DNA of 64,000 bases from Desulfarculus baarsii DSM 2075 (GTDB lineage Bacteria > Desulfobacterota > Desulfarculia > Desulfarculales > Desulfarculaceae): positions 2,941,501 through 3,005,500 of the forward strand of contig NC_014365.1 of assembly GCF_000143965.1 (NCBI RefSeq), given 5' to 3'. The position numbers were made by a program, and so were the translations under genes. This document shows positions 32,713 to 57,328 of this stretch, piece after piece. Numbering within the stretch: the stretch's first letter is position 1; each line of letters starts with the position of its first letter. The notes beneath the pieces were generated by a model, which was not told the DNA's origin, did not search any database, and saw only the letters and a list, made by a program, of their open reading frames with translations.

Positions 32713-33471
32713 ATGCGCGCGCGCGAACTGTTCATCGGCGCTTTGCTGACCCTGAGCCTGGCCGCCCCGGCCTGGGCCCATTTTGGCATGGTCATCCCCG
32801 AGCAAAACATCACGGCCAAGGCGGGCACCGTCTCGGCGCGGCTGCTGTTCTGGCATCCTTTCGAGGGCAATGGCATGGACCTGGTCAAACCGGCCGAGGT
32901 CGGCGTGTTCCGCCAGGGCGAAAAAACCGACCTGCTGCCGGCGCTCAAGGAGCGAAAGCAGGACGGCCACCAGGCCTGGACGGTGGATTACAAGATCAAA
33001 AAGCCTGGCGATTACTATATTTACATGGTGCCCCAGCCCTATTGGGAGCCGGCCGAGGACTGCTTCATCATCCACTACACCAAGTCTCCCATCAGCGCCA
33101 TGGGCGCCGAGGAAGGCTGGGACGAACCCCTGGGGCTCAAGATGGAAATCGTGCCCCTCAGCAAGCCTTACGGCCTTTATGCCGGCAACGGCTTCTGCGG
33201 TCAGGTGCTCTACAAGGGCAAACCCCTGGCCGGGGCCGAGGTCGAGGTGGAGTATTACAACCAGGACGGCAAGCGCAAGGCCCCGGCCGACGCCTACGTG
33301 ACCCAACTGGTCAAGGCCGACCAGAACGGCGTGTTCAACTTCACCATGCCCTGGTCGGGCTGGTGGGGCTTCGCCGCCCTGCACACCGACGACGATCGCA
33401 AGATCGCCCACGACGGCCAGGACAAGGACGTGGAAGTCGGCGGCGTGATCTGGGTCTTTGCCCACGAGTAA
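32713..33471 (+). CDS. nikK: periplasmic nickel ECF-transporter component NikK (DUF4198)
   Basis: Exported protein of 252 residues with a DUF4198-type beta-sandwich. The signal peptide ends in AWA, so the mature protein would begin with His (HFGMVIPEQ), a residue conserved in the family and suited to metal binding. Further conserved features are FWHPFEG, GDYYIYMVPQPYWEP and the C-terminal FAALHTDDDRK with GVIWVFAHE. The gene order nikK-M-L-Q-O matches nickel transporters described in Proteobacteria, where K and L replace NikN. Metal specificity is inferred from this order. Confidence 0.85.
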   Translation: MRARELFIGALLTLSLAAPAWAHFGMVIPEQNITAKAGTVSARLLFWHPFEGNGMDLVKPAEVGVFRQGEKTDLLPALKERKQDGHQAWTVDYKIKKPGDYYIYMVPQPYWEPAEDCFIIHYTKSPISAMGAEEGWDEPLGLKMEIVPLSKPYGLYAGNGFCGQVLYKGKPLAGAEVEVEYYNQDGKRKAPADAYVTQLVKADQNGVFNFTMPWSGWWGFAALHTDDDRKIAHDGQDKDVEVGGVIWVFAHE

Positions 33472-33520
33472 ACCAATCTGGCCCGGGCGGGGGCGTCCCC
33501 GTCCGGGCGAGGAAGCATCG

Positions 33521-34129
33521 ATGCATATTTCAGAAGGAGTTCTTTCCGCGCCGGTTTTGGCCAGCGGGGCCGTGCTGGCCGCCACCGGCGTGGCCATGGG
33601 CCTGGCCAGGCTCGATTATCAGAAATTGCCGCGGGTGGCGGTGTTGTCGGCGGCGTTTTTCGTGGCCAGCCTGATCCACGTGCCGGTGGGCCCGGTGAGC
33701 GTGCATCTGGTCTTGAACGGCGTGGTGGGCCTGTTGCTGGGTTGGGCGGCGTTTCCGTCGATATTGGTGGCGCTGGCGTTGCAGGCCATCCTGATGCAGT
33801 TTGGCGGGCTGATCGTTTTGGGGGTCAACACCTTTTCCATGGCCATGCCGGCGGTGATCTGCCACTATCTTTTTCGGTCGATGGTCGCCAGCCAAAACCG
33901 CGTCGTGGCCTTTGCCGGCGGGGCCTTGGCCGGGGCGCTGGCCGTGGCCCTGGCTGGCCTTTTCGTGGCGTTGGCCCTGTTTGGCGGTGGCGAGGATTTC
34001 GCCACGGTGGCGGCGGCGGTGGGCCTGGCCCACGTGCCGATCTTCATCGCCGAGGGCGTGTTGACCGGGCTTGCGGTATTGTTTATCAAAAGGGTGCGGC
34101 CGGCCATGCTGGACCGCGACCAGGCTTGA
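33521..34129 (+). CDS. nikM: ECF-type nickel/cobalt transporter substrate-binding membrane subunit
   Basis: Membrane protein of 202 residues, the S-component of the transporter. It begins MHISEGVLS; the N-terminal Met-His pair is known from solved NikM structures to coordinate the metal. The FVASLIHVPVGPVSVHLVLN segment supplies the other metal-site histidines, and ALQAILMQFGGL and GVNTFSMAMPA are family signatures. The ATG at 33521 follows GAGGAAG. CbiM (cobalt) and NikM (nickel) are close relatives; the neighbouring K and L genes favour nickel. Confidence 0.93.
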   Translation: MHISEGVLSAPVLASGAVLAATGVAMGLARLDYQKLPRVAVLSAAFFVASLIHVPVGPVSVHLVLNGVVGLLLGWAAFPSILVALALQAILMQFGGLIVLGVNTFSMAMPAVICHYLFRSMVASQNRVVAFAGGALAGALAVALAGLFVALALFGGGEDFATVAAAVGLAHVPIFIAEGVLTGLAVLFIKRVRPAMLDRDQA

Positions 34130-34140
34130 GGGGGTTTGGC

Positions 34141-34758
34141 ATGCAAAATAAATTCGCAATCGGTTTCATTTTCGCGCTGGCCGTGTCAATCTTGTGCTGC
34201 GCGCCGGCCTGGGCCCACAAGGTGGGCGTCTACGCCTACGCCGAGGGCGACAAACTCATGGGCGAGGGCTATTTCTCGGGCGGCGACAAGGCCATGCACT
34301 GCCCGGTGAAGCTCTACGACAACCAGGGCAAGCTCATCGCCGAGGGCCAGACCGACGCGAACGGCGCTTTCGCCCTGCCCCTGCCCCAGGCCGCCCCGCC
34401 GCTGAAACTCCTGCTCGACGCCGGCGAGGGCCACCGGGCCGAATACGAAGTGACCGCCGAGGATCTGGGCCAGAGCGCCGAGCAGGCCGCCACCCCGGCC
34501 GCGCAGCAAGCGTCGCCGGCCCCGGCCACGGAGCAAAACGCCTCGACGCCGGCCGCCGGAGCCATGGCCATCGACGCGGCCCAGTTGGAGCGGATCGTCA
34601 GCCAGGCGGTCGAACAAAAAGTCGGGCCGCTTCGCGCCCAGTTGACCAAGTTGGCCGCCAACCAGCCGTCGCTGCTCAACCAGATCATCGGCGGGCTGGG
34701 CTGGATTCTGGGCCTGGTGGGCATCGCCGCCTTTTTCCTGGGCCGTCGGCAAAAATAG
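34141..34758 (+). CDS. nikL: nickel ECF-transporter accessory membrane protein NikL
   Basis: Protein of 205 residues. The signal peptide ends in AWA and the mature protein would start with His (HKVGVYAYAEGDKLMGEGY). A small beta-sandwich follows (VKLYDNQGKLIAEGQTDANG), then a Pro/Ala/Gln-rich linker and a helix (residues about 110-175), and one C-terminal membrane segment (IIGGLGWILGLVGIAAFFLG) with a basic tail. This arrangement matches the NikL component that takes the place of NikN. It lies 11 bp after nikM. Confidence 0.82.
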   Translation: MQNKFAIGFIFALAVSILCCAPAWAHKVGVYAYAEGDKLMGEGYFSGGDKAMHCPVKLYDNQGKLIAEGQTDANGAFALPLPQAAPPLKLLLDAGEGHRAEYEVTAEDLGQSAEQAATPAAQQASPAPATEQNASTPAAGAMAIDAAQLERIVSQAVEQKVGPLRAQLTKLAANQPSLLNQIIGGLGWILGLVGIAAFFLGRRQK

Positions 34759-34787
34759 GAGCACGCGCATGATCATCGGCCTGGGCC

Positions 34788-35585
34788 ATGTCGGCTGAGC
34801 GGCATTCGCCACGCGCCAAGCCCGAGGCGTCGATCCTCGACGGGGCCAATGGCCAGGGCCGGGGGCCCCTCACCAGGCTGGACCCCAGGGCCAAGCTGCT
34901 GGCGGCCTTGGGCTTCAGCCTGGTGACGTCGTTGTGCGCCAGCCCCTGGGCGGCGACGGCGGCGCTGAGCCTGGGCCTGGGCCTGACGCTGGCGGCGCGG
35001 CTGGGCCTGGGGCCGGTGCTGCGGCGCACGGCCACGGTCAATGTGTTCGTGCTGTTTTTGTGGGCCTTTTTGCCCTGGCGGCTGGAGATCGCCCCCGACG
35101 TGCTGGAGGCCTCGCTCGTCTTCAACCCGCCGGGGCTGTCGCTGGCCTGGCTGATCACGCTCAAGGTCAACGCCATCTTTTTCGCGCTGACCGGGCTATT
35201 GGCCACCAGCCGGGTCAACGACCTGTTGCACGCCATGGCTCACCTGCGGCTGCCGGGCAAGCTGGTCACGCTTTTTCTTTTGTTTTTTCGCTATCTTTTC
35301 GTGTTGCACCGCGAATATCAGCGCCTGACGCTGGCCATGCGCGTACGCTGCTTCACGCCGGGCAACAATCTGCACACCTACCGATCCTACGCCAACGTGG
35401 TGGGCATGCTCCTGGTGCGCAGCTTCGACCGGGCCGAGCGAGTCTTTCAGGCCATGCTCTGCCGGGGCTTCAACGGCACCTTCTGGGTGTTGGACCATTT
35501 TGCCTGGCGTCGCCAGGACACCATCTTCTGCGCCGGCGCGGCCATGGCCCTGGCCGGCCTGATCGTGCTTCAGTGGGGAATCTGA
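34788..35585 (+). CDS. nikQ: ECF-type nickel/cobalt transporter transmembrane T-component
   Basis: Membrane protein of 265 residues of the CbiQ/NikQ family, which couples the S-component to the ATPase. The first 35 residues are hydrophilic. Hydrophobic segments follow, with the conserved LTRLDPRAKLL near residue 28 and the coupling motifs AMRVRCF and FQAMLCRGFNG in the C-terminal cytoplasmic part. The best ribosome binding site (TAGGAGC) serves an ATG at 34769 in another frame, whose nine-codon reading frame ends in the nikQ start region, so nikQ may be translated by coupling. Confidence 0.92.
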   Translation: MSAERHSPRAKPEASILDGANGQGRGPLTRLDPRAKLLAALGFSLVTSLCASPWAATAALSLGLGLTLAARLGLGPVLRRTATVNVFVLFLWAFLPWRLEIAPDVLEASLVFNPPGLSLAWLITLKVNAIFFALTGLLATSRVNDLLHAMAHLRLPGKLVTLFLLFFRYLFVLHREYQRLTLAMRVRCFTPGNNLHTYRSYANVVGMLLVRSFDRAERVFQAMLCRGFNGTFWVLDHFAWRRQDTIFCAGAAMALAGLIVLQWGI

Positions 35586-35587
35586 TC

Positions 35588-36238
35588 TTGGAATTGCTGC
35601 GCCTGGAAGACGTCACCTTCGCCTACCCCGGCCGCCCGCCGGTGCACCAGGGCCTCAACTTCACCCTCAACAAAGGCGACCGCCTGGGCATTTGGGGACC
35701 AAACGGCGCGGGCAAATCGACCATGTTCCTGCTGGCCATGGGCCTGGTCGCGCCCAGCCAGGGCCGGATCCACGGCCTGGGCCAACTCTGCCAAAGCGAA
35801 AATGATTTCCGCCGTCTGCGCCGCCAGGTGGGCCTGCTGTTCCAAGACCCCGACGACCAGCTCTTTTGCCCCACCGTGGCCGAGGACGTGGCCTTTGGCC
35901 CGCGCAACCTGGGCCTGGGCAAGGACGAGGCCCTGCGCGTGGTCGATCGCACGCTGGCCGATCTGGGCCTGGAAGGCTATCAAAAGCGCGTGACCTATCA
36001 GCTTTCGGGCGGCGAAAAACGCCTGGTCTCGCTGGCGGCGGTGCTGGCCATGGAGCCCCAGGCCATCCTGCTCGACGAGCCCAGCAACGGCCTGGACGAG
36101 GAACACTCCGTGCGCCTGGAGCGCCGCTTGCTGGATAGTCCGCTCTCGTGGGCCATCGTCTCCCACGACCGCGGCTTTCTCCAGCGGCTGTGCCAGCGCA
36201 TTCTGGTGATGCAAGATGGCGCGTTGGTGGAACAATAA
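35588..36238 (+). CDS. nikO: ECF-type nickel/cobalt transporter ATPase
   Basis: ABC ATPase of 216 residues. Walker A is GPNGAGKST near residue 39, the Q loop is VGLLFQDPDDQLF, the signature is LSGGEKRLVSLA, Walker B is AILLDEPSNGLD and the switch histidine is in AIVSHDRGF. QDPDDQLF is typical of CbiO/NikO proteins. I chose the TTG at 35588, 2 bp after the nikQ stop; no ATG exists in the first part of the frame. At 216 residues it is slightly shorter than many CbiO proteins, lacking the C-terminal extension. Confidence 0.94.
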   Translation: MELLRLEDVTFAYPGRPPVHQGLNFTLNKGDRLGIWGPNGAGKSTMFLLAMGLVAPSQGRIHGLGQLCQSENDFRRLRRQVGLLFQDPDDQLFCPTVAEDVAFGPRNLGLGKDEALRVVDRTLADLGLEGYQKRVTYQLSGGEKRLVSLAAVLAMEPQAILLDEPSNGLDEEHSVRLERRLLDSPLSWAIVSHDRGFLQRLCQRILVMQDGALVEQ

Positions 36239-37099: not shown

Positions 37100-37128
37100 T
37101 TGCCGGCCAGGGGGGATGGCGTTATAAT
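37100..37128 (+). promoter_or_regulatory. strong sigma-70 promoter of the free-standing RNA gene
   Basis: TTGCCG (37100-37105) and a perfect TATAAT (37123-37128) are separated by 17 bp. Transcription should begin near 37135. No open reading frame of useful size follows before the terminator at 37338, so the promoter appears to serve a noncoding RNA. Confidence 0.75.
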
Positions 37129-37156
37129 CTCTAGCAAGAGCTAGGATTATAACGCC
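37118..37156. repeat. long palindrome spanning the -10 box and start point of the RNA gene
   Basis: GGCGTTATAATC (37118-37129) is the exact reverse complement of GATTATAACGCC (37145-37156). Inside, CTAGC pairs with GCTAG around an AAGA loop, with one unpaired T. The left arm contains the TATAAT of the promoter, so a protein bound here would occlude RNA polymerase; alternatively the right half could fold in the RNA. Confidence 0.85.
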
Positions 37157-37338
37157 GGGCGTAGGACAAGCCTACCCCCCGGGCTCAGGTAAAGCGCTTG
37201 GGCCCGGCCGCCAGCCCCCAAGAGCGCCAGGCAACAAAACGCCGCCACAGTCGCTGGGCGGCGCAAACGCAGCATCCGGGGCTCGAAAAAGCAGATCGCC
37301 CGCTTCCGCCTTATCGGGGGAGACGGGCGATTTGTTTT
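37135..37338 (+). ncRNA. candidate noncoding RNA of about 200 nt
   Basis: The stretch has a consensus promoter upstream and an intrinsic terminator at its end, and codes for nothing recognisable. Hand folding gives several hairpins: GTAGG/CCTAC near 37161-37176, GCGC-TTGGG with CCCAA-GAGCGC (about 37188-37225), and a seven-base-pair CGCCGCC/GGCGGCG stem at 37240-37263. A partial closing stem pairs GAGC and GGAT (37138-37147) with ATCC and GCTC (37274-37284). The size suits 6S RNA, but I could not fit the single long rod with a central bubble. It lies between the SprA-type gene and the convergent PilZ gene. Confidence 0.6.
37293..37338 (+). terminator. intrinsic terminator, probably bidirectional
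   Basis: ATCGCCCG (37295-37302) pairs with CGGGCGAT (37324-37331), extended by a CTTCC/GGGAG inner stem, and is followed by TTTGTTTT on the plus strand. On the minus strand the hairpin is followed by a T5 run (the A5 at 37286-37290), so it can also end the PilZ transcript that stops at 37357. Confidence 0.8.
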
Positions 37339-37356
37339 GCGGCGGGCGGCCGGCGC

Positions 37357-37779: not shown

Positions 37780-37808
37780 CCCCCCATTATTGAAGCCGTG
37801 GGGATGAT
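37775..37808 (-). promoter_or_regulatory. hairpin covering the PilZ gene's ribosome binding site and start codon
   Basis: On the minus strand ATCATCCCC (37808-37800) pairs with GGGGATGAT (37783-37775), nine perfect base pairs around a 16-base loop. The 3' arm holds the G-run that should act as ribosome binding site and the two adjacent ATG codons. In an mRNA it would mask translation start. Confidence 0.6.
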
Positions 37809-37857
37809 ATACGTTTTCGCGGCGGCGGTCAACCGTCGGCGCGGGCCGCGGCCGGCT

Positions 37858-57208: not shown

Positions 57209-57328
57209 GGGCTCTGGGCGAGTTGGACACCGCGCAACGGACGGTCGTGAACCCCGTCAGGTCCGGAAGGAAGCAGCGGTAAGCAATGCGGTTCGTGTCG
57301 CGGATCGTTCCAGCCACGCCCAGGGCCC
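57209..57328 (+). ncRNA. ffs: signal recognition particle RNA (4.5S type)
   Basis: The conserved domain IV core GTCAGGTCCGGAAGGAAGCA, which binds Ffh and SRP receptor, lies at about 57258-57277. The ends close as GGGCTCTGGGCG (57209-57220) with CGCCCAGGGCCC (57317-57328), with one G-T pair, giving an RNA of about 120 nt. The length is typical of the small bacterial SRP RNA. No clear promoter was found between it and the HU terminator. Confidence 0.92.

Follow-up and report, generated by a model that had tools for sequence, protein, structure and literature searches.

A predicted small RNA gene of Desulfarculus baarsii with conserved C-rich segments around a covarying hairpin

The Xanthomonas small RNA sX13 comes from a GC-rich genome, carries C-rich motifs in three hairpin loops and does not need Hfq; its mRNA targets have G-rich motifs near the start codon, and the same paper also names C-rich RNAs from Staphylococcus and Helicobacter (PMC3771888). 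For a different sulfate reducer, a survey of its non-coding RNAs reports members of 18 Rfam families (PMC11124144). Little seems to be known of small RNAs in the Desulfarculus lineage, and none of the papers searched mentions 'Desulfarculus baarsii' together with 'small RNA'. The Staphylococcus and Helicobacter RNAs use a C-rich seed against G-rich ribosome-binding sites, and sX13 is an Rfam family.

A locus at about position 2,978,600 of the D. baarsii genome (G000:C1; a single contig of 3,655,731 bases) is very probably a real, conserved small RNA gene. The locus was studied within a window of 64 kb (C1:2941501-3005500), which is the whole stretch of DNA analysed and to which the coordinates below refer. 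The RNA is a new small RNA family, matched by no Rfam family, and as far as searched it is restricted to one bacterial family. As would be expected of an independent gene, the locus has its own promoter and an intrinsic terminator, and its structure is kept by compensatory changes. The best explanation overall, to which we assign a probability of roughly one half, is that a trans-acting RNA of a new family is encoded here by a free-standing gene and would act by C-rich pairing on ribosome-binding sites.

The locus lies between an SprA-related gene (PF12118; 36312-37070, plus strand) and a convergent gene for a PilZ-domain protein (PF07238; 37357-37779, minus strand), both Pfam matches being over the cut-off. 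Upstream of the SprA-related gene, CbiQ and ABC transporter genes (Pfam; 32713-36238, plus strand) follow a CbiM-like frame identified by eye and form a cobalt or nickel uptake operon. The PilZ gene has a strong promoter-like site of its own, TTGACC-17-TATCAT, directly upstream (37804-37832, minus strand). A sigma-70-type promoter, TTGCCG-17-TATAAT, was found by sequence scan at 37100-37128 on the plus strand, where it is the window's sole plus-strand site scoring at least 10/12; one of 20 dinucleotide-shuffled windows contained such a site. Both the promoter and the position between unrelated genes, with a convergent neighbour, had been claimed in a sequence-only reading of the window and are confirmed here.

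From the promoter and terminator sequences, RNA polymerase would start about 7 nt past the -10 box and stop at a hairpin near 37338. The predicted RNA (37135-37340, plus strand) is about 200 nt long and contains three TTG codons but no ATG or GTG. Its predicted fold is a chain of separate hairpins with an energy of -101.3 kcal/mol, compared with -80.7 ± 4.3 kcal/mol for shuffled sequences (z -4.82; 0 of 200 shuffles as good). The last hairpin (37288-37338) has an energy of -33.7 kcal/mol by itself; its 3' side leads into TTTGTTTT, and on the minus strand CTGCTTTTTC comes next. As the tails are T-rich on both strands, the hairpin, which would end the RNA on the plus strand, can serve the convergent PilZ gene as a terminator too, and probably does. 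It is absent from the list of a strict terminator scan, so that the tail is regarded as imperfect and the terminator call rests on the fold. An additional GC-rich hairpin at 37239-37263 (plus strand), followed on the minus strand by GTTTTG, was not seen in relatives of the RNA. The stretch of about 200 nt, rich in hairpins and devoid of an open frame, thus stands as first described, and so does the intrinsic terminator, a strong hairpin with a T-rich tail, though one that the strict scan did not list.

The -10 box TATAAT is inside a near-perfect dyad of 39 nt, GGCGTTATAATC-T-CTAGC-AAGA-GCTAG-GATTATAACGCC (37118-37156), in which GGCGTTATAATC and GATTATAACGCC are the outer arms and CTAGC and GCTAG the inner arms. 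It is the window's only perfect inverted repeat with arms of at least 12 nt and a gap of 3-30 nt. The 12-nt arms are unremarkable by themselves since 7 of 20 shuffled windows also had such a repeat (0 or 1 each); their extension to 17 pairs, interrupted by a single bulge, does appear remarkable. A 14-letter pattern, with at most one mismatch allowed, detected no second copy in the genome, and no comparable dyad was seen in the relatives of the RNA locus, so far as these go a feature of D. baarsii only. The dyad is a possible operator.

The sequence-only reading had put forward two identities, the 6S RNA of the lineage or a new small RNA, and had named an Rfam search, especially for 6S, as a check. 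No family reached its gathering score at the locus in this search, and with E-values up to 10 there were sub-threshold matches only, none of them to 6S or to sX13. The best was RcsR1 (RF02552), which at 28.8 bits is far below its gathering score of 60 and lies on the opposite (minus) strand, over two terminator-like hairpins. Other Rfam families were rejected in the same way, with nothing at gathering score in the locus, and the related copy from genome G009 (below) gave weak matches that were all under threshold. Elsewhere in the window, the bacterial small SRP RNA was matched above its gathering score (57221-57318, plus strand; 62.3 bits). A free-standing gene of near 200 nt is what a 6S RNA would look like. 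The 6S covariance model (RF00013), however, places the 6S RNA of this genome far from the locus, at G000:C1:327902-328084 (66.5 bits; cut-off 46.4), and the fold of the locus is without the long interrupted stem with central bubble of the 6S type. The 6S identity is rejected on these grounds and is left with next to no probability.

Relatives of the RNA were found in three further genomes. BLAST of 266 nt against 98 genomes returned, besides the genome itself, a match of 52 nt in G009 and one of 28 nt in G023, the latter lacking the core described below. G009 belongs to the same family but another genus and has the exact 20-mer GCCTACCCCCCGGGCTCAGG in common with D. baarsii; an exact pattern scan of genome contigs likewise returned the G009 contig (MAG SKS1.bin11) only. 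A covariance model built from these two sequences (R1) and run over 63 genomes of the class gave G013 (33.5 bits), and a three-sequence model (R2) run over 20 genomes of the family gave G003 (35.6 bits). Per-genome E-values for G013 and G003 were about 2e-4 to 3e-4, which are rough values that become modest after multiplying by the genomes searched; scored on extracted loci, G003 had an E-value of 4.1e-6 with R2. The same model has one match in the D. baarsii genome itself. When the G009 copy was compared by BLAST with 19 family genomes there was nothing but itself under E 0.03, and the G013 match, at 0.032, proved real.

In the covariance searches the core, corresponding to window positions 37170-37218, was thus present in four of the 20 family genomes, in three genera and always between genes. 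It was not found in G006, a genome of the same genus that is 99% complete, although it is present in G009 and G013. Among 395 genomes of the phylum nothing outside the family survived reading: there were weak model matches in five genomes, none with GCCTACCCC and four of the five in coding-like frames. These absences hold at the sensitivity of the searches, in which the first look scored at most 150 candidates per genome in the 20 family genomes and at most 14 in the 395 phylum genomes. No match to the RNA was found in phages and plasmids. A mobile-element origin was rejected; two IMG/VR pattern matches proved to be a low-complexity tandem repeat in a long reading frame. This short tandem repeat, common to the two contigs (L149:5620-5730 and L150:7850-7980), contains GCCTACCCCCC and is unrelated to the RNA.

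The core begins with the C-rich segment GCCUACCCC (37170-37178, plus strand), identical in all four members. It is followed by a hairpin of 12 bp, CCGGGCUCAGGU-AAAGC-GCUUGGGCCCGG (37179-37207, plus strand), and by a second conserved C-rich segment, GCCAGCCCCC (37210-37219, plus strand), which the alignment gives as GYYGCCCCA in the relatives. The order in all is GCCUACCCC, the 12-bp hairpin, two bases, G, two or three bases and GCCCC; the hairpin loop measures 4-7 nt, and in G009 one base is bulged. The core folds of G009 and G013 leave GCCUACCCC unpaired; in the D. baarsii fold its predicted partner is GUAGG of the leader, and in the G003 core fold it is partly paired, with GGUAG.

The helix aligns as 12 pairs in four members, of which 47 of 48 cells are paired (G013 has one pair broken), and 6 of the 12 pairs have changes on both sides. 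The covariation score is 0.653, compared with 0.245 ± 0.098 for shuffles, none of 500 reaching it; the covariation is partly ascertained, because the models that detected G013 and G003 already contained the pairs. Counting was done on the model-fitted alignment with the register checked by hand, since an alignment by sequence only (MAFFT) misplaces the 3' arm of G003; a hand-made pair table gave the same result, and shifting the partner by 1-3 columns lowers pairing to 18-56%. The covariation shows that the core hairpin keeps its shape and not its sequence. Among the invariant positions are unpaired bases and the three outermost pairs, CCG/CGG. Covariance analysis in relatives, also proposed at the outset, therefore found the structure kept, though not in all close relatives, which goes against the refuting condition named there, a want of structural conservation.

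These data bear on the reading that the locus consists of terminators and chance hairpins and that the likeness of the cores is coincidental. The region is GC-rich and hairpin-prone, and the core is present in just 4 of the 20 family genomes. Sequence alone is moreover at chance level as a pattern: a sequence-only pattern matched 13 of 63 genomes, no more commonly than a reversed control, and gave no new member on reading, while a 19-mer with up to two mismatches occurred in 10 of 108 genomes (six matches for the reversed control) and was exact only in D. baarsii and G009. Coincidence is nevertheless very unlikely in view of the compensatory changes in the helix, of the exact 20-mer in G009, where the RNA adjoins a relative of the same gene, and of the location of the members, none of the four being in a coding-like frame; among 41 other weak matches examined, 32 are coding-like and the remaining 9 lack GCCTACCCC. 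The suggestion of a new small RNA is accordingly supported by conserved sequence and compensatory changes in 4 of 20 family genomes, between genes and beside different neighbours.

Of the other members, G003 has the promoter-like site TTGCCA-17-TAGAAT 23 nt upstream of the core motif and, by eye, a possible end in the hairpin CCATGCC-CAAC-GGCATGG-TTTT about 180 nt past the core, which the terminator scan does not list. G009 has a promoter-like site, TTGTCA-16-TAATAT, and directly past the core a perfect terminator ending in seven T. G013 also has a perfect terminator directly past the core, with no promoter-like site by the same scan, so that among the three relatives two have a promoter-like site and two a scanned terminator. 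The inferred ends give RNAs of about 100-130 nt in G009 and G013, and of about 200-250 nt in D. baarsii and G003. In G009 and G013 the RNA faces a convergent tRNA-Ser (L003:1309-1401, GGA; L067:1722-1927, GCT and TGA), the isoacceptors being different; no tRNA-Ser is near the RNA in D. baarsii or G003.

In D. baarsii only about 30 nt separate the end of the SprA-related gene from the -35 box, and the scan lists no terminator in this gap, so read-through from this gene is possible. The RNA might then belong to the SprA-related mRNA, as its 3' untranslated end or as a fragment cleaved from it, with a bidirectional terminator shared with the PilZ gene; that the terminator hairpin serves both strands agrees with this. 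A relative of the SprA-related gene also adjoins the RNA in G009, but there the RNA is upstream of it and divergent from it, and no SprA-related gene is beside the RNA in the stretches examined of G013 and G003. A fixed location beside an SprA-related gene was rejected, as it is not found in G003 or G004. Together with the presence of a promoter belonging to the locus, this makes a 3' untranslated origin distinctly improbable. Since the neighbours differ among the four members, the RNA is better taken as a free-standing, trans-acting RNA than as a leader or a fixed 3' untranslated region, and the earlier statement that it is not a leader holds.

No match to Hfq (PF17209) was found in the D. 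baarsii genome, while the same search was positive in 5 of 14 control genomes. With no Hfq detectable in the genome, the RNA most likely base-pairs without it. It would present two C-rich segments, GCCUACCCC and GNNGCCCC, around the 12-bp hairpin, and these strands may pair with G-rich ribosome-binding sites and so repress translation. A pairing RNA fits the pattern of conservation, in which the C-rich flank is invariant in sequence and the hairpin is conserved in shape only. Given a real small RNA, we adopt this mechanism tentatively, at slightly less than even odds.

Targets were sought in about 13% of the genome, made up of the window and 20 further stretches of 20 kb each, with 250 genes from a crude caller whose choice of start is biased to Shine-Dalgarno-like sites. 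In this sample 64 of 250 initiation regions contain GGGG, compared with 177 of 1250 coding stretches. For the seed GCCUACCCCCC, 12% of initiation regions were under the 5% level of coding stretches, i.e. bound better than coding. The exact seed was not enriched over shuffled C-rich seeds, which had a mean of 9.5% and of which 40 of 150 were equal or better. The test thus indicates only that C-rich strands in general favour initiation regions in this genome; it does not single out this seed, and it leaves the mechanism at the level of inference.

The main rival to C-rich pairing is a protein site, in which the RNA would titrate or scaffold a regulator that reads GCCUACCCC and the base of the hairpin, after the manner of CsrB-type RNAs, which titrate CsrA. 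Invariance of unpaired bases and of the outer CCG/CGG pairs is as expected of a protein site. The failure to see target enrichment for the exact seed also agrees with it, as do the single match within the D. baarsii genome and the change of neighbours among the relatives. On the other hand, there is one site per RNA, where the titrating RNAs known carry many, and no partner protein is encoded alongside in all members. CsrB and RsmZ have repeated GGA in their hairpin loops, whereas no GGA is conserved in the core in the four-member alignment, so the protein would not be CsrA. We consider this rival doubtful, if worth keeping in mind. A composite scheme, in which GCCUACCCC, the 12-bp hairpin and GCCCC form a fixed module that acts with an RNA-binding protein in place of Hfq while a regulator at the dyad controls synthesis, is unlikely.

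If transcribed, the RNA would be a conserved small RNA, not listed in Rfam, in an organism without detectable Hfq, and would offer a test case for how targets are found via C-rich strands where this chaperone is lacking. Further members can be sought directly with the covariance model built from the known ones.

Compared with known systems, the locus shares with 6S RNA its length and free-standing gene, and differs in that the 6S RNA of the genome sits elsewhere. The C-rich RNAs of Staphylococcus and Helicobacter are like it in the proposed action of the seed; they belong to different phyla, and the likeness is one without a sequence relation shown. The nearest described case is sX13, which is likewise free-standing, about 100-200 nt long and equipped with C-rich motifs; in sX13 these are in three hairpin loops, whereas those of the D. 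baarsii RNA flank one hairpin (PMC3771888).
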